Shown here one piece after another: positions 8,345 through 17,875 of a stretch of DNA of 21,817 bases. Within the stretch, counting starts at the first letter, position 1. Each line of letters begins with the position of its first letter. This DNA is from a virus, in IMG/VR virus record IMGVR_UViG_3300025079_000034, positions 1 to 21,817 of that record; one strand, 5' to 3'. The notes below the pieces were generated by a model. That model ran no database searches, was not told where the DNA came from, and was given only the letters and a program-made list of their open reading frames with translations. The position numbers and the translations under genes were made by a program.

Positions 8345-8758
8345 TTAAAACTCATGCAAGATGTCCTCTGGACTATCAATTGTTGCTAATACTTCGTCGT
8401 CATTTAATAAACGCATTTCTCCGCCGTCTATTTTAATTCGGCTGCCTGCATAACGTGCAAACATTACCCAATCTTTGACCTTGCACCACGGGCCTTCGGG
8501 ATATCTTTCTTTATCCTTGTAACATTGAGGACCCATAGCCATAACCAAACCAACTTGAGATGCAACTTGTTGCCTCTCTAAAGTTGTTTCAGCTAATACT
8601 AATCCACCTTTAGTTTTATCTTTCATTTTAAAAGGTAAAACTATTAACCTCCACCCAGTAGGCTTTGGTAACTTAGGTTCTTTCTCTTCTTTTTTCTCTG
8701 ATTTTTTTACACCAACAAGATCATTGTTCGGTGTTAATATTGATGACTGTTCCTTCAT
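8345..8758 (-). CDS. GroES-like co-chaperonin (Cpn10)
   Basis: A 137-residue protein. An acidic/basic extension of about 33 residues precedes a Cpn10-like barrel. PTGWRLIVLPFKMKD (33-47) is the first strand, KTKGGLVLAE (48-57) corresponds to the mobile loop that binds GroEL, GLVMAMGP (70-77) to the conserved GxVxAVGxG-type strand, and VKDWVMFARYAGSRIKIDGG (94-113) to the GDxVLFxxYxGxxIKxxGxE region. DDEVLATID ends the fold. Phage co-chaperonins such as T4 gp31 replace host GroES so that the capsid protein can be folded; the position in the head cassette supports that role. AAGGAG precedes the ATG, which lies inside the end of the 74-residue gene (38-base overlap). The N-terminal extension is longer than in bacterial GroES. 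Confidence 0.8.
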   Translation of the reverse strand: MKEQSSILTPNNDLVGVKKSEKKEEKEPKLPKPTGWRLIVLPFKMKDKTKGGLVLAETTLERQQVASQVGLVMAMGPQCYKDKERYPEGPWCKVKDWVMFARYAGSRIKIDGGEMRLLNDDEVLATIDSPEDILHEF

Positions 8759-8945
8759 TGTGCTCCTTATCGTTTAGCAGGTTAGAGATTTCCTGACGCA
8801 CTGATTCCAGTGCATTGATTTGTCCTATTATATACTTGTAATTTTCCATACTGTCAACCCCTCCAGAAGTTACGGATATTGACAAATCTTCTATTCTTGA
8901 ATCTAAAAATCTTAAAGTTTTATTTATTACTGTTTCTAATTGCAT
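8721..8945 (-). CDS. Small helical protein, unknown
   Basis: A 74-residue protein, mostly helical (MQLETVINKTLRFLDSRIED; YIIGQINALESVRQEISNLL at about 39-58), with a short acidic tail. Its ATG overlaps the TAA of the preceding 55-residue gene (TAATG). Its 3' end carries the AAGGAG and start of the co-chaperonin gene in another frame. It may form a coiled-coil dimer. Small proteins of this kind are common in this position in marine phages; the function is unknown. Confidence 0.55.
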   Translation of the reverse strand: MQLETVINKTLRFLDSRIEDLSISVTSGGVDSMENYKYIIGQINALESVRQEISNLLNDKEHNEGTVININTEQ

Positions 8946-9112
8946 TATTTCTTCGCTACCTTTCCTGTGTTTTCACCTTTTTTAATAACATAATCTTGAG
9001 TACCATTAGCTCCCGTATTCACTTCTTTTTTTAGTTCTTTAAAAAGGTTCATTTGTTTTTTATCTTTTTCTTTCTTTTTAGAATATTCTTCTAAAGCTTT
9101 TGTATCTCTCAC
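8945..9112 (-). CDS. Lys-rich microprotein, 55 residues (GTG start)
   Basis: The frame runs from a GTG that shares its first G with the TAG stop of the preceding gene (TAGTG) to a TAA that shares its last A with the next ATG. It encodes RDTKALEEYSKKKEKDKKQM after the start, then an FKELKKEVNTGANGTQDYVI segment and a basic end (GKVAKK). The N-terminal half is a charged helix. An internal ATG at 9052 would give 35 residues but has no RBS; the GTG start fits the overlap pattern of its neighbours. No family is recognised. Confidence 0.55.
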   Translation of the reverse strand: MRDTKALEEYSKKKEKDKKQMNLFKELKKEVNTGANGTQDYVIKKGENTGKVAKK

Positions 9113-9405
9113 TAGCAATTCCACTTTCTAAGTGATTTAGATAATCTATCCTCTCCAGTATTATTACTAGCCTTTTGTCTTTTACGCATCCCCTTCATAC
9201 GCGCGCAGAACGACTTACGTCTTTTTGCAGCTTTAGATCCTTTTTTTAATTTTGATGGTTTTGTTGTAACAGCAGTTTTTAATTTAGAACCAGGGTTCGC
9301 TGCTTTATACGAATCAACACCTTTTTGATTTAATCCACCGGACTCTGACTTACCTTCTTTTCTAGTCCACGCTGGACTACCACCTCTTTTAAAATCTTGT
9401 CTCAT
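9112..9405 (-). CDS. Basic Cys-containing protein, DUF6321-like
   Basis: A 97-residue, strongly basic protein. DFKRGGSPAWTRKEGKSESG (4-23) and GLNQKGVDSYKAANPGSKLK (24-43) match a recurrent phage domain that I believe is DUF6321. The second half, KRRKSFCARMKGMRKRQKAS (about 61-80), ends with LSKSLRKWNC, a tail seen in many marine phages. Two cysteines (one in SFCARM, one as the last residue) are conserved parts of these motifs. It begins by an ATGA overlap with the 84-residue gene. A nucleic-acid-binding or virion-internal role would suit the charge, but this is inference. Confidence 0.65.
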   Translation of the reverse strand: MRQDFKRGGSPAWTRKEGKSESGGLNQKGVDSYKAANPGSKLKTAVTTKPSKLKKGSKAAKRRKSFCARMKGMRKRQKASNNTGEDRLSKSLRKWNC

Positions 9406-9656
9406 GTGAATGTTTTTACGTTTGTAGGTTTACCACCTGGATTACCAGCTGCTCTTTTTCGTTTGACAGCACTCACCTTTTGCCCTTTTGACATCTGTGT
9501 GGCTTTTGCAAGTGGGACGCATTTTGGATATTTCCTCTTTGAGCCTTTGCTTCTCCCGCAAGGTTGATACTTCCCGTCTTTCTTCGGCGCTCCAATATCG
9601 ACCCATTTTTCCGATACCCATTTTCTCAACCCACCTTTTGAAAAGTGAGTACGCAT
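9402..9656 (-). CDS. Basic Cys-containing protein, DUF5872-like
   Basis: An 84-residue, basic protein. LRKWVSEKWVDIGAPKKDGK (10-29) leads to YQPCGRSKGSKRKYPKCVPL (30-49), with a CGR...YPKC pair that could bind metal. The end is KRKRAAGNPGGKPTNVKTF. I recognise this set of motifs from a small domain common in marine phages and marine bacteria, probably DUF5872. It starts by TAATG overlap with the 67-residue gene, behind AAGGTGG. Another open frame over the same bases (9442-9669) lacks these conserved motifs and is not the gene. The function is unknown. Confidence 0.65.
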   Translation of the reverse strand: MRTHFSKGGLRKWVSEKWVDIGAPKKDGKYQPCGRSKGSKRKYPKCVPLAKATQMSKGQKVSAVKRKRAAGNPGGKPTNVKTFT

Positions 9657-9859
9657 TAAACACAGCCACCTTTAACGTATTTCATTCTAGTCATATCCAT
9701 CATTCCACCACCCATAGCTTTTTTTCTAGTTTTCTTTTTGCCACCTGGTGTAACTTTTCCTGAACATACGGCTGAACCGTACATGTTAGCATATGCTGAA
9801 GGGTATACTTTGAATTTTCTTTTAGCGGCTGCTTTGCCTTTTGCACAAAGTTTAGCCAT
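9656..9859 (-). CDS. Basic Cys-containing microprotein with YPSAYAN motif
   Basis: A 67-residue protein. MAKLCAKGKAAAKRKFKVYP (1-20) is followed by SAYANMYGSAVCSGKVTPGG (21-40), a KKKTRKKA stretch, and a Met/Gly-rich end with KGGC. The KVYPSAYAN...CSGK block is a recurrent marine phage motif. Cysteines at 5, 32 and 66 could coordinate metal. It is translationally coupled on both sides by TAATG overlaps. With its two neighbours it forms a run of three Cys/Lys-rich genes which may be parts of one modular family. The role is unknown. Confidence 0.6.
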   Translation of the reverse strand: MAKLCAKGKAAAKRKFKVYPSAYANMYGSAVCSGKVTPGGKKKTRKKAMGGGMMDMTRMKYVKGGCV

Positions 9860-9996
9860 TATTTTTTCGCTTTCCCACCTGTTTTAGCAACCATTCTTTT
9901 TGGATTATATCCAAACTTTTTTGCTAACTCAGGGTTTGATTTAGCTAGTTTAGCTAATCCTTTATTTTTACTTTTACTAATTGGTTTTCCTGGCAT
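9859..9996 (-). CDS. Lys-rich microprotein, 45 residues
   Basis: This frame is bounded on both sides by TAATG overlaps, with AAAGGAGAATA directly before its ATG. The product starts MPGKPISKSKNKGLAKLAKS and continues through NPELAKKFGYNPKRMVAKTG to a basic end. The LAKSNPELAKKFGYNP segment looks like a small conserved helical motif. The MPG start is shared with the 80-residue protein two genes upstream. It is too short for ordinary ORF cut-offs, but the RBS and double overlap support it well. The function is unknown. Confidence 0.6.
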   Translation of the reverse strand: MPGKPISKSKNKGLAKLAKSNPELAKKFGYNPKRMVAKTGGKAKK

Positions 9997-10301
9997 TATT
10001 CTCCTTTAGCTTTTTTAAACATTCTACCTATTACTTTGGTATTATCTTTTTGTATTCTTTTATATGCTTCTTTATTTGATTCAGATTTTTTTGTACTTTT
10101 TTTAAAAGTTAAAGGCATATCATTTTCTATTTCAAAAGCAGTTTGTTTTAATTTTGCTGTTGAACCTTTTAATTTTTCTGTACCAATTTTTAAATCTCTT
10201 GTTGCTTTTTGTATTTTTGTCTCAGGTACGTTTGTTTTAGTTTTGTTGATAGCTTTACCTGCAGCTTTTAAAGCTTTGTATCCGTATGATAAAATTCCCA
10301 T
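9996..10301 (-). CDS. Basic helical protein, unknown
   Basis: A 101-residue protein, about a quarter Lys. MGILSYGYKALKAAGKAINK (1-20) could be an amphipathic helix. ETKIQKATRDLKIGTEKLKG (27-46) looks like a short coiled coil, and the basic end is KVIGRMFKKAKGE. A strong AAAGGAGG precedes the start, encoded in the last codons of the 14-codon leader-like ORF. The final codons (AAAGGAGAA) in turn provide the RBS for the next gene. No family is recognised; a DNA-condensing or virion-internal role would fit the composition only. Confidence 0.55.
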   Translation of the reverse strand: MGILSYGYKALKAAGKAINKTKTNVPETKIQKATRDLKIGTEKLKGSTAKLKQTAFEIENDMPLTFKKSTKKSESNKEAYKRIQKDNTKVIGRMFKKAKGE

Positions 10302-10345
10302 TATTTTTTTCCTCCTTTAAATATTTGTTTTTTTAATTTATCCAT
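10301..10345 (-). CDS. 14-codon coupling ORF
   Basis: A complete mini-frame (MDKLKKQIFKGGKK) lies exactly between two genes. Its ATG shares an A with the TAA of the 80-residue gene, and its TAA shares an A with the ATG of the 101-residue gene. Its codons for K-G-G-K contain the AAAGGAGG of the downstream start. It may be a coupling device that carries ribosomes across a 42-base gap rather than a functional peptide. Its QIFKGGKK end resembles QIFKAGKKG, the end of the 128-residue membrane protein two genes upstream. Confidence 0.4.
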   Translation of the reverse strand: MDKLKKQIFKGGKK

Positions 10346-10587
10346 TATGAATTTCTTCCAAATGCTCTACCACCACCTTTTAGTGCTACACCACCTCTTT
10401 TCATAGGTTTTTTTGGTTGTTGCAAAAAATTACCTGTTTTAGAATTAAAAGTTCCTAGACCTCTATCAATTATACTTTGTTGGTAATCTGTTGGAAAAAA
10501 AAGTTTTTCTTCTCTCTCAACTGGTTTAGATTTTGAAGCTTTACCTTTAGTAGCTCTTATTTTTTTTTTTGGATTTTGTCCTGGCAT
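10345..10587 (-). CDS. Basic Gly-rich protein, unknown
   Basis: An 80-residue protein. The N-terminus is Lys-rich (MPGQNPKKKIRATKGKASKS) and likely disordered. A short ordered core (LFFPTDYQQSIIDRGLGTFN, about 29-48) follows, then PMKRGGVALKGGGRAFGRNS as the end. The RGGVALKGGGRA tail is recurrent in pelagiphage-like small proteins and recalls the Gly-loop motifs of the two large proteins upstream. The RBS is AAGGAT. It starts 3 bases after the stop of the membrane protein. The function is unknown. Confidence 0.55.
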   Translation of the reverse strand: MPGQNPKKKIRATKGKASKSKPVEREEKLFFPTDYQQSIIDRGLGTFNSKTGNFLQQPKKPMKRGGVALKGGGRAFGRNS

Positions 10588-10590
10588 ATT

Positions 10591-10977
10591 TTATCCTTTT
10601 TTTCCTGCTTTAAATATTTGTGTTCCTTTTATACCATAGATTGACGCTACTACAAGTATCCAAAGATTAGTAAACCATTTTGGTAGCTCTGAGAACATCT
10701 CGAAAAACAATTTTACCTTGTCCATTGCTGTTGGATCGTCACTTACGACTGCCCAGGCTAAGATTGCGATTGGCAAACTTAAAATTATTAAAACTGCCTC
10801 GTCTTTCCAGTCTGATTGTCTAGCTTCAAGTAGTTTTCCTTGGTAAGCTTCTTCTCCCGAAGCCATACGAGAAGCATGCATCAATTGTGCATCCGACATT
10901 GCCATTTTAGTCTTCTGTTTGTTAGCGTAAATTTTACTACCAGCAGAGACGGCTAATTTAATTGCCGAAAACCACAT
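10591..10977 (-). CDS. Small membrane protein, holin-like candidate
   Basis: A 128-residue product from ATG 10977 (MWFSAIKLAVSAGSKIYANK). A helical, charged region (about 21-62, ending QSDWKDEAV) precedes two hydrophobic segments, LIILSLPIAILAWAVV (about 63-78) and WILVVASIYGIKGTQI (about 107-122), then a basic tail. The WFSAIKLAV...RQSDWKDE pattern is recurrent in marine phages. With two membrane spans it could be a holin or a virion membrane-channel protein; neither is proven. A longer frame from GTG 11073 is possible but would cover the intact 59-codon gene just upstream, so the internal ATG is preferred. It lies one base after that gene's TAA. Confidence 0.6.
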   Translation of the reverse strand: MWFSAIKLAVSAGSKIYANKQKTKMAMSDAQLMHASRMASGEEAYQGKLLEARQSDWKDEAVLIILSLPIAILAWAVVSDDPTAMDKVKLFFEMFSELPKWFTNLWILVVASIYGIKGTQIFKAGKKG

Positions 10978-10978
10978 A

Positions 10979-11158
10979 TTAGTACCAAGTAGCTGTTTTC
11001 TTTTTATTAGATAGCATTCTTTTAGTTCCTTTAACTTGTTCCTTGTCTCCAGTAGGAATATAGTTGAAGGCACTGTTGGCAGTAGTCTTAGATCTTGGAT
11101 CTATTTCAACATTCTGCGATGGAACTGCTATTTGTTTTTCTTTTTTATAGTTCATCAT
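10979..11158 (-). CDS. Small basic protein, 59 residues, masked by a longer frame
   Basis: The frame runs ATGATG at 11158 to TAA at 10979. The product is MMNYKKEKQIAVPSQNVEID, then PRSKTTANSAFNYIPTGDKE and a basic end QVKGTKRMLSNKKKTATWY. The VKGTKRML...TATW ending is a pattern I have met in other marine phage microproteins. AAAGGT lies eight bases before the first ATG, and the stop is one base before the membrane protein start. Overlapping out-of-frame coding from a GTG at 11073 is the competing reading. The better RBS, tidy junctions and sensible composition favour this gene. Confidence 0.6.
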   Translation of the reverse strand: MMNYKKEKQIAVPSQNVEIDPRSKTTANSAFNYIPTGDKEQVKGTKRMLSNKKKTATWY

Positions 11159-11188: not shown

Positions 11189-13642
11189 TTATTTTTCATC
11201 AAAGATAGACATTTGTTGCATGCCAGATTTAGCTAAACTTGTATTAGCTCTTAATTCTGCTAATTCTTCGTTCTGATCCATCTTATCTTCGGCTAAATCT
11301 CTTGCTTGCATTAGTTTTGCTCTATCAAAATTGGTTTTTGCTTCATCAGCTTCTCTTTTTCTATCATTTTCCATTGCTCTTAAATCAACTTCACGTGATT
11401 TTAACTTTAATAGTGGGTCATTATCAAATTGAGAAGTAATTTTATTTTCTTCTTTCATAAATTCTTCTGTCATCTCAGCAATTAACACTGCTTTTCTACC
11501 TTCTACTTCGTTATTTAACATTTGAACTTGTTCTTGTATCTGTGGGTTAGTTGCTGCCATCTGTTGCATCTGTTGTATCTGTGCAAGCTGTTCTCTAAAC
11601 TCCATTTGAACTTGTTCTTGAGCCATAATTGAAATGTGCTCTAATATATTTTTTTGAACTGCAGCCATAACTGGTGGATTATTTCTTACCATGTTAACAG
11701 ACATAAAATTCAAGTGAGCTGTAATGTGTGCTCTATGATCTTGACCAGGAAAAGCTTTGAAAGGTTTACCACCCATAGCATCAATGTGTTCTAAAGAAGG
11801 ATCTTTAGGTGCTTCTGGTGGTGTTGGAGGCAGAACGGCATCTACATCTTTTACACCAATCGCATTATACATGTTTCTATAAATTTGATACATGTTGTGA
11901 AGTTGTGGATTGCTTGTTGCAATTTGTAATTGCGTTTGAGCTAAAGTTATTCTTTGTGACATTGAAAATATATTAGGGTCAGCAACTGGGACCACGTCTA
12001 CTCTATCATCAAAATCAGATTGTTTAATATTTCTTTCACCACCCACAACATCATAAGGATATTCTGGTGGTAAATACTGTGCAACTATTTTTCCTAACAA
12101 TCTAAATTCATTCTTCATTGCTGCATAACATCTTTTATGTATTGCAGACATTACACGTGAACCACGCTCAAGAAGTGCAACTGTAGTTCCAACTGCAGCA
12201 CCTTGATTTCCGTCACCCACTTGCATATCAGCAATAGCCGCGAATCTTTGACCTGCTTGTACAACCACTCCTAATAATTGTAGAAGTGTTTGACTTGGTT
12301 CTTTGTAGGGTAGTGGAAAGAATGCATCTCTTAAATTACCACCTGGTGCATCTACATCTTTAAATTCACCTGGTTGTATTGGCGACGCTTCATCTCTAAC
12401 TCTAACTCCACGTTGTTTAAATCCAGCAGGTAAGTTAGCTAAAGTTCCAGCATCTAATAACTGTCTTAAAGCTGAAGTCGCTGTTCTCGACAATCCACCA
12501 ATCATGTGAATTAAACCAAAACCATAAAAACCTAATCCTGGTAAAAATTTAAAATGCACAAAATATTGTATTTTGTTTTTCTTTACATCTTCTGGAGCAT
12601 AGTTTCTTCTTATAGCTAGAACTGATCTACTTCCTTCTTCAACAGTTACAATGTAAGGTAGTTTAATTCCAGTTGGTTCTTTATCTTCACCAACATCTTC
12701 AAAACCTTCTAAATCTAAATTAACATGACATTCTAATAAAGTGTAGACAGGTTCGTTTGTACCTGATTTTTTAGTTCCTTCTAGTTCACGTTCTTTTTTT
12801 TCTAAATCATTATTTAAAGGTGTTCCTGGAGGACCTAATTCTACATCTCTATAGAATCCAGACACTTGTTGTTTTCTCAGTTCGTTCTCTGAAATTTTCA
12901 CGGTATGAATAACTGCCTCCGCATCTTCTAATGAGGTAGCAGTATACGGGACAACTAATTCATCCGCTGGTACAAACTTTGATACCGCTCTTCCAAGTGG
13001 CACATCGTAGTAAATTTTTTTAAATGTAGAACCTGCTAATGGTAAATGAAATAACATAGAATCAAATTCAGATTCATATTCTTTAATCTGATCCATAATT
13101 AAATAGTTCATGAAATCTTTGACACGTTGTGCCTGCTGTTCTACCTGAGGACTTTTTTTACCAATAACTTGTGTTCTTACTGGTCCATCACTTGGTAATA
13201 ATTCTTTGTAAGCTTGAGCTTGAAATTGTGTAACAGCTTCTGCTAGAACTGGGTGCGTTGCACCTGAAGCTCCTTGAAAAGGCTCTGTTCTGTTTTCGTA
13301 TTTAAAACCTAGAAGATCTAATCCTGTTCTATAAGATTGTTCCCATTCTTTTCTAGATGATTTGTAATCCATAAAATTTTGAACCATTTCATTTCCAACA
13401 GGTTCTAAAATATCATCAGGTAAAATATCAGCTAAGTTATCAAAGTGTGATTCTGTTCCAGAAATATTAATTGCACTGGGATCAAAGTCTAACGTAGCTC
13501 CGCCGTCTTCTTCTTGAATAATCTCTACAGGTTCTTTATTAACGTCTTCTTCCTGAATATTAACTTCTTCTGACATCTCTTCTTCTGAAGGAATGTCAAT
13601 CTTAGTCCTAGTATTAGGAAGTCCTTTGTCTATATCTGCCAT
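11189..13642 (-). CDS. Portal protein, P22-like
   Basis: An 817-residue protein. A long acidic N-terminus (1-80) precedes the portal core: FMDYKSSRKEWEQSYRTGLD (about 89-108), EPFQGASGATHPVLAEAVTQ (about 118-137) and the fold's stem and clip region. The conserved DMQVGDGNQGAAVGTTVALL block (about 470-489) is followed by ERGSRVMSAIHKRCYAAMKN. The last 150 residues are a Gln/Met/Glu/Lys-rich coiled coil, probably the barrel inside the capsid. It forms the dodecameric DNA gate at one vertex and docks terminase and adaptors. The length is above the 725 residues of P22 portal, mainly at both ends. The RBS is AGGAGAAATAA, with the previous stop (TAG) inside it. Confidence 0.85.
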   Translation of the reverse strand: MADIDKGLPNTRTKIDIPSEEEMSEEVNIQEEDVNKEPVEIIQEEDGGATLDFDPSAINISGTESHFDNLADILPDDILEPVGNEMVQNFMDYKSSRKEWEQSYRTGLDLLGFKYENRTEPFQGASGATHPVLAEAVTQFQAQAYKELLPSDGPVRTQVIGKKSPQVEQQAQRVKDFMNYLIMDQIKEYESEFDSMLFHLPLAGSTFKKIYYDVPLGRAVSKFVPADELVVPYTATSLEDAEAVIHTVKISENELRKQQVSGFYRDVELGPPGTPLNNDLEKKERELEGTKKSGTNEPVYTLLECHVNLDLEGFEDVGEDKEPTGIKLPYIVTVEEGSRSVLAIRRNYAPEDVKKNKIQYFVHFKFLPGLGFYGFGLIHMIGGLSRTATSALRQLLDAGTLANLPAGFKQRGVRVRDEASPIQPGEFKDVDAPGGNLRDAFFPLPYKEPSQTLLQLLGVVVQAGQRFAAIADMQVGDGNQGAAVGTTVALLERGSRVMSAIHKRCYAAMKNEFRLLGKIVAQYLPPEYPYDVVGGERNIKQSDFDDRVDVVPVADPNIFSMSQRITLAQTQLQIATSNPQLHNMYQIYRNMYNAIGVKDVDAVLPPTPPEAPKDPSLEHIDAMGGKPFKAFPGQDHRAHITAHLNFMSVNMVRNNPPVMAAVQKNILEHISIMAQEQVQMEFREQLAQIQQMQQMAATNPQIQEQVQMLNNEVEGRKAVLIAEMTEEFMKEENKITSQFDNDPLLKLKSREVDLRAMENDRKREADEAKTNFDRAKLMQARDLAEDKMDQNEELAELRANTSLAKSGMQQMSIFDEK

Positions 13643-13651
13643 TTATTTCTC

Positions 13652-15940
13652 CTATATCTTCTTAACACGATTAAATAGACCTTGCAACCCTTGAGGTGTA
13701 GGTCCTGATTGTGGTGCAGGGCCTGATCTATCGCCTGCTTCTTTTGCAATACCACCGCCTGCGAGTTCAATTGCCTCTAAACCTGTTGAGGGTTTTAATA
13801 TATCTCTTTTTTTAGATCTCATTTTCTTTTCTTTTGCAAACTCTTCTCTTCTTTTTTGATCAAGAGCTTGAGCATTAAAAAACATATTTAAATCAAAGTC
13901 TCCTTTAAAACCTTTGCTTGGGGGCAGGATAGTATTAAATGTTTTTGATTGTTCTAAAACCTTTTTGTTTAAATTTTCTGCTTTTAATTTATTCATTGCT
14001 TGTGTTCTATATCCACCACCTTGAGTAGATAAATTTTCTGCTCTTAATGAATCATCATATGTATCTTTCAATTTTTGTGCTTTCCCATAGTCTGCATATT
14101 TTTCTTTTAACTGTTCTTCTTCACTTTTACCAAACAAACCATAAGTGGCATTAGATATAATTTCATCTTTGTTTGCACCTTTTGCATACTCATACGCAAC
14201 AAATGGAGCAGCAAATAACGCTTCATAAGCCAAGGCTGTTGGACCTAACATATTTTTTAAAAATCTCCCACCTTGAATTGTTTTAGTTATAGCTGTTACA
14301 TTTGCTTTATCACCTGGTGTCAGTTTACTAGGATCTCCTTTTAATTTTTCCACACCTTTTGTAGCACACGCTGTTACATTTAAACCTTGGTCAAAACCTA
14401 TTCGACCACCATTAGCCTTACCTGGACAACCTATTTTTGCTAAACGTATTTGATCCGGTTTAGCTATAGTTTTTAATACATTATCTAAACTACCAAATTT
14501 TTTATCAATCGCTGTTTTACCTTTTGGATCGTTGTATATTTTTTCTGCATACTGACTAAATCTATCTGCTTGTGTTGTAGCTGTAGTTATGGGTTTTGAT
14601 GCAAGTTTGCCATCTTTAATAGAATAGATATTTGATTTTACACCTAAGTCTTTATAAGCATCTTTAGTTAATTTATTTAAACTAGCTACGTTATCTTTTA
14701 CATTAACACCGGCTTCTATATCTCTTATCAAAGCTCCTCTAGTTGCTTCAAACCCTCCAAACCCAATCTTCGTGTTTTGTCGTCTTGTAGTTCCAATTAA
14801 ATCATTTAAGGCAGTTCTCATTAAATCTTTATTACCGCTTCGTGCTGCAGCAGATAAACCTTGACCATGATCTATACTGTATAGTAAACCTGTATCATCT
14901 AAATCAGTTAAACCAAAAAATTTAGCAGCAACTTTTTGTTCTCTAACCATTGAGTTTTTAATAGAGTTTTTTTTAAGACCTAATTCTTTTTCGATTAAAT
15001 TAGCATTCACTTTCCAACCTTCACTTTTATTTATCTTGGCTGTAAATTCATTATAAGGTTTTGCAAGATCATCAAAACTATTAAACACTTCAAATTTAGA
15101 ACCTTTCTGTAATCCAGAATCTTTTTCTGAAAGTAAATATAAAACATCTTTATCTAAAATGTTTTTAAAAGATTTTATAGTCTGACCTCCTGGAGCTCCT
15201 CTTTTATCTAAATTAATAAAATCAAAATAATCATTAATCTTATTTTTCAAACCAGGTGTTGTTTGAATTTTGTTTTTATAAAAGATCTTTTTCCATTGAG
15301 CTTGATATTTATCAACACCACTTGGATTTTCAGGTGTATAGAATGTTACATTATCATAACTAAAAGGATTTTTACTTACTGCAGTCCCTTTACCTTTACT
15401 TGTACTTAAATTAGGAAAACCACTTTCAGTAGTCGTTTTTATTTTATTTGTTGATATTTTTTTAGATTGTGTTTTAAAATCTTTCTTAAGTTGGCTAGTC
15501 ATTTTTTCAAAATCTCTAACACCATAATTTTCAAGATTATTGTTTAGCCAATTAGAAGTCCAAGAATCTATTTTACTTCTTGCATCAACTATTTCTTTGG
15601 TAAATTTCCCTGTTCTTTCAGCTGCCGTTTCAGTGCTGTAATTAGAAACTCTTTTAAAAAATTGTTTTTTAGTTTCGTCAAGATTTTGAGTTAAAAGTTT
15701 TTTATCTCTTCCTACTTTTTTAGAATACAGTTTAGTTTTCTTATTATAAATGGTATTATAATTATCTGAATAAACCTTGTCTCCATTATACCCGGGCCGT
15801 GATCCGTCGACATTGGGTTGTACTAACTGGCCGTCTGCAAACATGGGCCGTGATCCTTGGTCCATGGCGCTTGGGCCATCGTCATCGTAGATAGATGAAA
15901 AGTTCTCTAGTCTCTGTCCTATAAGATCAAAGGGGTCCAT
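13652..15940 (-). CDS. Large putative internal/ejection virion protein with GGRIG and DGSRPGY motifs
   Basis: A 762-residue Lys/Asn-rich protein. The N-terminus holds two related blocks, GSRPMFADG (29-37) and DGSRPGYNG (46-54), encoded in unusually GC-rich DNA. The middle (about 200-500) is mostly helical and includes YSIDHGQGLSAAARSGN (354-370) and ALNDLIGTTRRQNTKIGFGG (377-396). CPGKANGGRIGFDQG (505-519) is a Gly-loop motif shared with the neighbouring 644-residue protein. A hydrophobic stretch (LGPTALAYEALFAAPFVAYE, 565-584) could insert in a membrane. The C-terminus is Pro/Gly-rich, with AGGGIAKEAG (727-736). Its place between terminase and portal and these motifs fit large pelagiphage-type proteins, perhaps ejected with DNA. 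It starts directly after the previous stop (TAAATG). Confidence 0.5.
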   Translation of the reverse strand: MDPFDLIGQRLENFSSIYDDDGPSAMDQGSRPMFADGQLVQPNVDGSRPGYNGDKVYSDNYNTIYNKKTKLYSKKVGRDKKLLTQNLDETKKQFFKRVSNYSTETAAERTGKFTKEIVDARSKIDSWTSNWLNNNLENYGVRDFEKMTSQLKKDFKTQSKKISTNKIKTTTESGFPNLSTSKGKGTAVSKNPFSYDNVTFYTPENPSGVDKYQAQWKKIFYKNKIQTTPGLKNKINDYFDFINLDKRGAPGGQTIKSFKNILDKDVLYLLSEKDSGLQKGSKFEVFNSFDDLAKPYNEFTAKINKSEGWKVNANLIEKELGLKKNSIKNSMVREQKVAAKFFGLTDLDDTGLLYSIDHGQGLSAAARSGNKDLMRTALNDLIGTTRRQNTKIGFGGFEATRGALIRDIEAGVNVKDNVASLNKLTKDAYKDLGVKSNIYSIKDGKLASKPITTATTQADRFSQYAEKIYNDPKGKTAIDKKFGSLDNVLKTIAKPDQIRLAKIGCPGKANGGRIGFDQGLNVTACATKGVEKLKGDPSKLTPGDKANVTAITKTIQGGRFLKNMLGPTALAYEALFAAPFVAYEYAKGANKDEIISNATYGLFGKSEEEQLKEKYADYGKAQKLKDTYDDSLRAENLSTQGGGYRTQAMNKLKAENLNKKVLEQSKTFNTILPPSKGFKGDFDLNMFFNAQALDQKRREEFAKEKKMRSKKRDILKPSTGLEAIELAGGGIAKEAGDRSGPAPQSGPTPQGLQGLFNRVKKI

Positions 15941-17875
15941 TTACTCTCCTAACATTCGAGCAATACCGCCTGATGCTTTTTTAATAGATTGTGTTTGATT
16001 AATAGTTTTTGATGTAATTGGTTTAACTTGGTCACCTACTTCTGTAAGTATATCATCAGATATACTTGAAGATTCATCGACAATTTCCCCTGCAAATTCT
16101 CTGTCACTTCTTATATACGCTGTACCTTCTTCATACTCAGGTTTTGTTTTAACAGGTTTGCCACCTTTACCGATAATAGTTTCACCGGGTGTATAACTCA
16201 TGTAAGTTTCTTCGGTTAATGGTTGACCATAATAATCAGCTGCATCATCATCTAATTTTACTTTCATTCTTTGAATTTCTTGTCTACCGGTTACTGCATC
16301 TTCTGTTAATTGATAGTCTTTAAATTTTGTAACTTTTTGTCTTTCTTGTGTTGAAGCTGTTTGAGTTACATCATCACCTAGTCTTTTAATTTTATCTACC
16401 AATTTAAAAAAGTAAGGTGGAACTCCTCCACTAGATGTTGCTACTTCTTTAGCAACTTCTTTAGTTGCTTGTTTACCACCAATTCCAAGTATACCTGTTT
16501 TAATAGCCGCGGCCCCTGCACCAAGGCTACCTAGTAATTTTAAAAATCCTCTACGACCCATACCGCCACCTACAAAAGGTGCTCTCATTATTCCGCCGTC
16601 AGCTTTATTTTCTACGTTCGGTGTATTAAATTCATCTATTGTTTTCATTAATTTTTCTTGATCTATTTCGTTCATTCTTCTTCCTATAGCTTTTATACTT
16701 CCACCTTTAATAGATGTAGTTGCACTATCTATTGCATTATTCATATCTTTTTCAGCAGCTTCAAAAATAATTTTTTGTATTTCATCGTTATTAGGTTTTC
16801 TTCCAGTTACTTTCATAAAACCTCTTGCTAATCTTAATACAAGATTAGTTATACCCCCTCCTACTAAACCAATACGTCCGCCGTCAGCTTGTTTAGTTCT
16901 AGTTACATTTTTAAATGTTTCTATGATTTCATCAGTGCCTTTACCTTTTTCCATCATCTTAAATGCCTCATCTATTGTTGCCAATACTTCTGCTTTTCTT
17001 TGCATATTATCATCAATTAATATTTTGTCTAACAGATCGTCTGTAATGCCTGGGTATTTTTGTTTTAACTGTAGTCTTTCTACCATTTTAGGAGCGAGAG
17101 ATTTTGCTACGTCCATTTCAGTTCCAAGATCAAATGAAGATAGTTCTTCTATTTCATCTACACTCATTAATTTTCTATCACCACTTCCTTCCATATCTTC
17201 AAGTTTTTGTTCTAAGAATCTTTTTCTAGCTTCTGATTTGTCACCTGGTTCTGGATCTAGTTTACCCATTCTGTATTGTTGATACATATCATCCATATAT
17301 TCTTTATGTTCTATTCTTATTCTGTTTGCAGAACCAACTGTGCCATCAAAATTATAAGCCTCTAATTCTCCTCCTATATCCTCTGCAAAATCGTAAATTT
17401 CATCCTCGGTCATTTCTCTGTTTGGATCAGGATTTCTGTCTTTAAATTTTTTAAACATATCTCTGTCTAAAGTTTTTTGTGGTGTTTTAAGTTTGTCTGC
17501 AGTCGTAATTGCTTTTTTACCAAATTTATTTTGTAATGCTTTTAATAAACCTTGAACAACTTTACTTCCACCTGCATAACCAATACGTCCGCCCATTGCT
17601 TTTTTCTCTGGGTCATCTAGTTTATTTTTTAGATTTGCAATACCTTGCTCATTTTGTTTTATAAGTCTTTCTCTAATCTGTTCTTCAGTCTCATCAATAT
17701 TTTTACCACCTAGTATAGGTTTGTTAGGATTAACTGGTTCACGGTCAAACATGTTAACAACTTTTCTTTCGTCAACAGCTTGATTAGCTGCTTTCTGTTT
17801 TAACAAAAGCATTTCTAAGTTATTTGGATTTCTACCATTCTTTTTAATAAATAGTGATAGTAAAAGTTTAAACAT
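15941..17875 (-). CDS. Large putative internal/ejection virion protein with repeated Gly-loop motifs
   Basis: A 644-residue hydrophilic, helical protein. A short unit occurs twice: LFIKKNGRNPNNLE (8-21) and GFMKVTGRKPNNDE (352-365). Gly-loop motifs occur at 95-103 (GGRIGYAGG), 332-340 (GGRIGLVGG), 427-438 (GGIMRAPFVGGG) and 636-640 (GGIAR). At 440-468 lies GRRGFLKLLGSLGAGAAAIK followed by TGILGIGG, which looks like a twin-arginine signal but is internal. The last third is acidic and probably disordered. It starts by TAATG overlap with the terminase gene. Its last codons (GGAGAG) give the RBS for the 762-residue gene. A virion-internal, membrane-active role is inferred only. Confidence 0.5.
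   Translation of the reverse strand: MFKLLLSLFIKKNGRNPNNLEMLLLKQKAANQAVDERKVVNMFDREPVNPNKPILGGKNIDETEEQIRERLIKQNEQGIANLKNKLDDPEKKAMGGRIGYAGGSKVVQGLLKALQNKFGKKAITTADKLKTPQKTLDRDMFKKFKDRNPDPNREMTEDEIYDFAEDIGGELEAYNFDGTVGSANRIRIEHKEYMDDMYQQYRMGKLDPEPGDKSEARKRFLEQKLEDMEGSGDRKLMSVDEIEELSSFDLGTEMDVAKSLAPKMVERLQLKQKYPGITDDLLDKILIDDNMQRKAEVLATIDEAFKMMEKGKGTDEIIETFKNVTRTKQADGGRIGLVGGGITNLVLRLARGFMKVTGRKPNNDEIQKIIFEAAEKDMNNAIDSATTSIKGGSIKAIGRRMNEIDQEKLMKTIDEFNTPNVENKADGGIMRAPFVGGGMGRRGFLKLLGSLGAGAAAIKTGILGIGGKQATKEVAKEVATSSGGVPPYFFKLVDKIKRLGDDVTQTASTQERQKVTKFKDYQLTEDAVTGRQEIQRMKVKLDDDAADYYGQPLTEETYMSYTPGETIIGKGGKPVKTKPEYEEGTAYIRSDREFAGEIVDESSSISDDILTEVGDQVKPITSKTINQTQSIKKASGGIARMLGE

Follow-up and report, generated by a model that had tools for sequence, protein, structure and literature searches.

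The 21.8-kb virus record analyzed here (IMG/VR IMGVR_UViG_3300025079_000034, positions 1 to 21,817; hereafter the window) is of the HTVC023P pelagiphage type, with HTVC027P as the nearest isolate found, and eleven small minus-strand open reading frames (ORFs) of 14-128 codons, g1 to g11, fill the interval between its portal and GroES co-chaperonin genes. Three of them form a conserved core, namely g7 (YPSAYAN), g8 (KWVDI...CGR...YPKC), and g9 (DUF6321), and the same three modules are found within one chain in the T4-GC119 proteins of cyanomyoviruses. We propose, with a probability of roughly one half, that the core corresponds, in split-gene form, to a modular virion protein whose parts are separated by proteolysis; it probably resides in the head and is encoded in a mosaic late-gene island.

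Conserved core and its overlaps

The core occupies the portal-GroES gap, the capsid-tail gap, or the gap between the large terminase subunit (TerL) and portal genes, the first two predominating among relatives. An earlier note on this DNA, made from the sequence alone, had pointed to DUF5872 and DUF6321 as profiles to be searched. For DUF6321 (PF19846) this was borne out, as g9 is a member of the family (65.2 bits at a cut-off of 28.5, profile positions 1-72 of 72), a family present in 465 of 50,697 phage records. For DUF5872 (PF19197), g8 aligns with profile positions 53-103 (E = 9e-4) at 20.2 bits, below the curated cut-off of 27.5, while g7 of the window gave no match to the profile, and neither product is a whole-domain member. 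In phage DSL-LC04, a g7-like protein covers positions 1-39 of DUF5872 and a g8-like protein positions 53-106. Because the two halves of the domain are matched in order by separate genes, the TAATG at 9656 appears to split DUF5872 into an N-terminal half, g7, and a C-terminal half, g8, with g7 assigned through its DSL-LC04 homologue. A fused g7-g8 ORF in contig L022 was discarded because this contig has broken reading frames elsewhere. We also noticed, in a sequence read by eye, an ORF (L140:1179-2864) which fuses g8-like and YPSAYAN modules to a nucleotidyltransferase-looking stretch.

The core products are strongly basic (pI 10.3-11.2), and exactly two cysteines, which may form disulfides, are found in 77 of 78 g8 homologues and 60 of 64 g9 homologues. 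The AlphaFold2 model of g8 was unusable (pLDDT 54), and that of g9 (pLDDT 73) consists of three helices. A structure search with the g9 model returned nothing from PDB, and from BFVD other DUF6321 proteins plus weak matches; BFVD also has a DUF6321 match to a protein that bears the name “AAA domain containing”. At the sequence level, g8, g9, the g9 profile, and GC119 matched none of the solved structures searched, and the literature searched for DUF5872 and DUF6321 held a single passing mention, for an algal virus.

The g7 and g8 genes overlap by 1 nt in 62 of 93 homologous loci and are directly adjacent in 81 of 93; g6 and g7 overlap by 1 nt in all seven loci (7/7). Neighboring head genes are 10-100 nt apart (GroES to scaffold in 65/65, p154 to p186 in 63/63, p186 to capsid in 36/40). 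Since the g7-g8 overlap is kept across loci while head-gene neighbors are spaced, the overlaps are above chance and a property specific to the block. Despite their TAATG starts, g5 and g6 have clear Shine-Dalgarno sequences of their own, as does groES. No Shine-Dalgarno sequence was found upstream of g9 (ATGA) and g10 (TAGTG), which makes these two genes the best candidates for termination-reinitiation.

A fused counterpart recorded in cyanomyovirus virions

All three motifs of the core are present in one chain of 427-708 aa in T4-GC119 of S-SM1, S-P4, S-B43, S-SM2, and S-SCSM1, the genes of which lie near terminase genes and beside virion proteins. A g9 profile built from pelagiphage sequences matches GC119 proteins at E values of 1e-14 to 2e-17, and a g8 profile built in the same way matches GC119 of S-SM2 (3e-7) and S-B43 (4e-5). 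The window therefore contains all three GC119 modules, g8 and g9 by profile and g7 by motif, as three separate ORFs and not as a single linker-joined polypeptide.

The presence of GC119 in virions is taken from database records and papers. In the S-SM2 record, 18 proteins carry the flag “similar to Synechococcus phage S-SM1 protein”, namely gp53, 4, 25, 6, 13, 14, 15, 18, 19, 20, 21, 23, and 3, together with VrlC, a PA14 protein, GC15, GC190, and GC119; terminases and replication genes are not among them. The S-SM1 proteomics paper lists gp4, 5, 14, 21, 25, 48, 53, GC15, and GC190 among the proteins newly detected in virions (PMC3037559). As gp4, 14, 21, 25, 53, GC15, and GC190 are in both lists, the flag seems to mark virion-detected orthologues, GC119 included. 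Independently, the GC119-like S-SCSM1_29 is annotated “virion protein” in its record, and the accompanying paper reports virion mass spectrometry (PMC9602691). The suggestion of the earlier note that the cassette encodes virion proteins is thus supported in part, for g7 to g9, which are related to parts of a virion-recorded protein and have conserved overlaps; one set with one function is not supported, g2 being holin-like and g11 acidic.

Two other basic modules behave like those of g7 to g9. The YTDENP module has a small gene to itself in HTVC033P but forms the N-terminus of GC119 in S-SM2 (E = 2e-13), and the GLYANIHAKRKR module is encoded by a small gene next to that of DUF6321 in P-SCSP1c, in HTVC033P, and at several portal-GroES loci. 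In the T7-like cyanophage P-SCSP1c (L188:4959-5377), the DUF6321 and GLYANIHAKRKR genes lie between the major capsid and tail tubular gp11 genes. In the cryo-EM paper on P-SCSP1u, an isolate related to P-SCSP1c to judge from the names, the terms searched revealed no mention of these proteins.

Candidate cleavage sites in GC119

Candidate sites, defined as [ILVMFT]xE[GAS] before a module, were counted in a non-redundant set of 84 GC119-type ORFs, drawn from cyanophages as well as viral contigs. They precede module A in 58 of 74 cases, module B in 37 of 65, and module C in 39 of 74, compared with shuffled means of 5.2, 3.6, and 2.4 (maxima 12, 9, and 7), the counts being non-independent events since these ORFs share descent. 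At the DUF6321 module, 69 of 71 sequences have a Glu two residues ahead of AAW, and in 68 of 71 the next residue is Gly, Ala, or Ser. The median spacing from the start Met of stand-alone ORFs to the module anchor is 18, 5, and 21 for A, B, and C, respectively, vs 16, 7, and 13 from the predicted cut to the anchor. Stand-alone pelagiphage ORFs start near the predicted GC119 cut points.

T4 gp21 and its relatives cut head proteins C-terminal to a Glu after a short motif, and positions 8 and 10 of the targeting sequence of internal protein IPIII govern its processing (PMC9026906). Such sites are also abundant in gp22, the prohead core protein of cyanophages, but not in sheath, portal, terminase, or polymerase. 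Among the head-region proteins of the window scanned outside the block, none matched a protease family. The removable N-terminal capsid targeting sequence of T4-type internal head proteins was not found, the starts sitting close before the modules, and it was rejected as a general feature because only one DUF6321 protein has one. That protein, S-SZBM1_192 (L089:4755-5252), begins with the T4 internal-protein-like MKTFKQYITE|A.

A mosaic island with apparent gene exchange

Gene content between portal and GroES varies, as in an island. In isolate HTVC023P this gap holds only gp32-gp35, and the g7-like gp51 and g8-like gp52 sit elsewhere, after a peptidase M15 gene. Many g9-bearing relatives have neither g7 nor g8, and only the g7-g8 pair is stable. 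The identity of g9 is without positive correlation to that of GroES (Spearman −0.30, n = 68, vs +0.79 for capsid and +0.59 for g8), so that g9 appears to be exchanged independently. The expectation that the whole set would travel together was consequently not upheld. In the window, g9 belongs to the subtype seen in cyanophages (FCARMKGMRKRQ...LRKWNC), and most close relatives have the SYCARSLGQ...RRWKC subtype, an apparent case of gene exchange between pelagiphages and cyanophages.

Proposed explanation and alternatives

In the explanation that we favor, the block would be a mosaic, fast-shuffling late-gene island of an HTVC023P-type pelagiphage, which also carries the probable holin g2. The g7, g8, and g9 products would be one-module proteins with coupled translation, and the cyanomyovirus GC119, in which the same basic two-cysteine modules are strung together, would probably be a polyprotein that enters the prohead. 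There, a gp21-type prohead protease would cut it after hydrophobic-x-Glu before each module and leave small basic head proteins. The pelagiphage modules would already begin near these cut points as independent ORFs, their translation linked by the stop/start overlaps, and the head would be the most likely destination of their products, which would associate with the DNA or leave together with it, at a copy number of tens to low hundreds; no role as bulk condenser is proposed. As the cut points lie close to the stand-alone starts, the simplest joint view is that the modules are kept apart in two ways, by a protease in cyanomyoviruses and by overlaps in the window phage. More tentatively, and with less confidence than in the proposal for the core, marine tailed phages may draw on a common stock of small basic head modules with two cysteines, made in either of two equivalent ways, as a protease-cut polyprotein in T4-like cyanophages or as coupled mini-genes in phages with no recognized prohead protease, and shuffled between cyanophages and pelagiphages. 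Proteins of the DUF6321 type, which have no known function, occur in very abundant ocean phages, and the link between mini-genes and GC119 makes many unannotated ORFs one question, namely whether their products are carried inside the heads of marine phages and ejected from them.

Several points weigh against this explanation. The excess of sites per protein is modest (z 0.9-2.7), the conserved Glu-Gly linkers could reflect descent, and we know of no GC119 cleavage product. The g7 profile alone misses the WPSAYAS stretch of cyanophages, the link being the (Y/W)PSAYA(N/S)...C motif only. A literature search found no virion proteomics for any HTVC023P-type phage, and the DUF6321 protein S-SZBM1_192 is not among the 30 proteins detected in S-SZBM1 virions (PMC9146016). 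Finally, in HTVC033P and HTVC100P the DUF6321 gene occupies the late region's tail/lysis end, beside lysis genes; occurrence outside virion modules, which the earlier note had named as grounds for giving up its idea, is thus seen in part.

The location of modules near lysis genes in HTVC033P, HTVC100P, and HTVC023P makes a late accessory or lysis role the main rival, although we consider it unlikely. The basic proteins would then remain unpackaged and act late with holin and endolysin, or bind intracellular nucleic acid. This would suit the holin-like g2, with its overlapping endolysin genes elsewhere, and the DUF6321 or g8 homologues near M15 peptidase/amidase genes in HTVC100P, HTVC033P, HTVC023P, and L164. 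However, the homologous cyanomyovirus modules are encoded near terminase genes, with virion proteins as neighbors, and records list the modules themselves as virion proteins, and most relatives keep the core in the portal-GroES or capsid-tail gap. No timing for gp44-gp54 was found in the main text of the HTVC027P transcriptome paper (PMC12753301).

Scaffold or assembly aids, acting in the prohead and gone before packaging, would fit the location between portal and GroES/scaffold as well as the absence of the modules from solved virion structures, but are improbable given that GC119 is recorded as a virion protein in S-SM1 and S-SCSM1. Least probable is the earlier note's idea of DNA-condensing proteins, taken here as protamine-like and neutralizing much of the genome: in spite of the high pI of g7 to g9, a net charge of +13 to +23 for the six basic products, and the basic DNA-bound proteins of chlorovirus virions (PMC3281028), about 118 copies of each of the six would neutralize only 10% of a 60-kb genome, which makes bulk condensation unlikely, the same paper states that evidence for a sizeable contribution of basic proteins to the neutralization of phage genomes is lacking, and the set is not kept as a set.

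Layout of the block and genes outside the core

All eleven genes listed in the earlier note are present between portal and co-chaperonin on the minus strand (Table 1), and every junction that it named is correctly placed: TAATG at 10345, 10301, 9996, 9859, 9656, and 8945, TAGTG at 9112, and ATGA at 9402-9405. In addition, g11 and the groES start share 38 nt. The description of the cassette as one of small basic proteins is qualified by the acidic g11 and the membrane protein g2.

Table 1. Genes of the portal-GroES interval and its flanks, in window coordinates
Feature	Position	Strand	Evidence
Portal protein (flank)	11189..13642	-	phrog_1216, 6e-70; SU10_portal, 6e-16
g1, 59 aa, basic, first after portal	10979..11158	-	ORF; homologues in HTVC027P (gp45) and at many portal-GroES loci
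g2, 128 aa, membrane protein, candidate holin	10591..10977	-	phrog_2524, E 1.8e-34
g3, 80 aa, basic, no known family	10345..10587	-	ORF
g4, 14-codon ORF between TAATG junctions, doubtful gene	10301..10345	-	ORF
g5, 101 aa, basic, strong Shine-Dalgarno	9996..10301	-	ORF; few relatives with homologue
g6, 45 aa, basic	9859..9996	-	ORF
g7, 67 aa, YPSAYAN module	9656..9859	-	phrog_27331, E 9.5e-27
g8, 84 aa, KWVDI/CGR/YPKC module	9402..9656	-	phrog_23735, 3e-42; phrog_727, 1e-4
g9, 97 aa, DUF6321 (PF19846), ends SLRKWNC	9112..9405	-	E 8.3e-18; phrog_727 C-terminus, 5e-33
g10, 55 aa, GTG start at TAGTG	8945..9112	-	phrog_32989, E 4.6e-23 from residue 1
g11, 74 aa, acidic, pI 4.5	8721..8945	-	phrog_32603, E 2.8e-16
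Co-chaperonin GroES (flank)	8345..8758	-	PF00166, E 9e-12

The g2 protein has a single strong hydrophobic segment at about residues 57-82 (hydropathy peak 2.57 at 61-79). Its family comprises 28 phage records, 26 of which are pelagiphages of several types, and the start of its homologue overlaps lysozyme/peptidase M15 endolysin genes in HTVC033P and Greip. It therefore has both a transmembrane segment and, through homologues in other pelagiphages, an endolysin-gene neighborhood, and is most likely a holin as predicted from these features; Pfam holin families gave no match. It is also a candidate for a holin found throughout SAR11 phages.

No convincing family match in Pfam or PHROG was obtained for g3 and g5, and that of g6 is marginal (E = 0.009). 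The g3-g6 genes vary among relatives, with g3, g4, and g10 poorly conserved or variable. The 14-codon g4 is absent from the close relatives checked and may be spurious as a gene. Outside the block, between TerL and portal, two long ORFs (762 and 644 aa; 13652-17875) carry GGRIG-type motifs and have no match in PHROG or Pfam.

Comparison with known systems

The Pfam family DUF5872 resembles the block in that its first half corresponds to g7-like proteins and its second half to g8-like ones, with the order kept, and differs from it in that the block has two genes with a 1-nt overlap and sub-cut-off scores. HTVC027P gp44-gp54 occupy the same place, with several 1-nt overlaps and homologues of g1, g2, and g7-g11; unlike in the window, other basic ORFs replace g3-g6 and g9 is of another subtype. 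A likeness to IPI-IPIII of T4, small head-internal proteins freed after Glu by the prohead protease, is proposed, and the start of S-SZBM1_192, MKTFKQYITE, resembles their targeting sequence, whereas no sequence homology has been shown and the pelagiphage proteins have no recognized targeting sequence. T4-GC119 (phrog_727; “gp114” in Syn9 and S-RIM8) differs from the block in being a single fusion that has additional modules and xE|G linkers; the pelagiphage has separate coupled ORFs instead, and no prohead protease was recognized in the window. Like the block, T4-GC119 is basic, comprises YPSAYAN-like, CGR/YPKC-like, and DUF6321 modules, and is encoded between virion and packaging genes.

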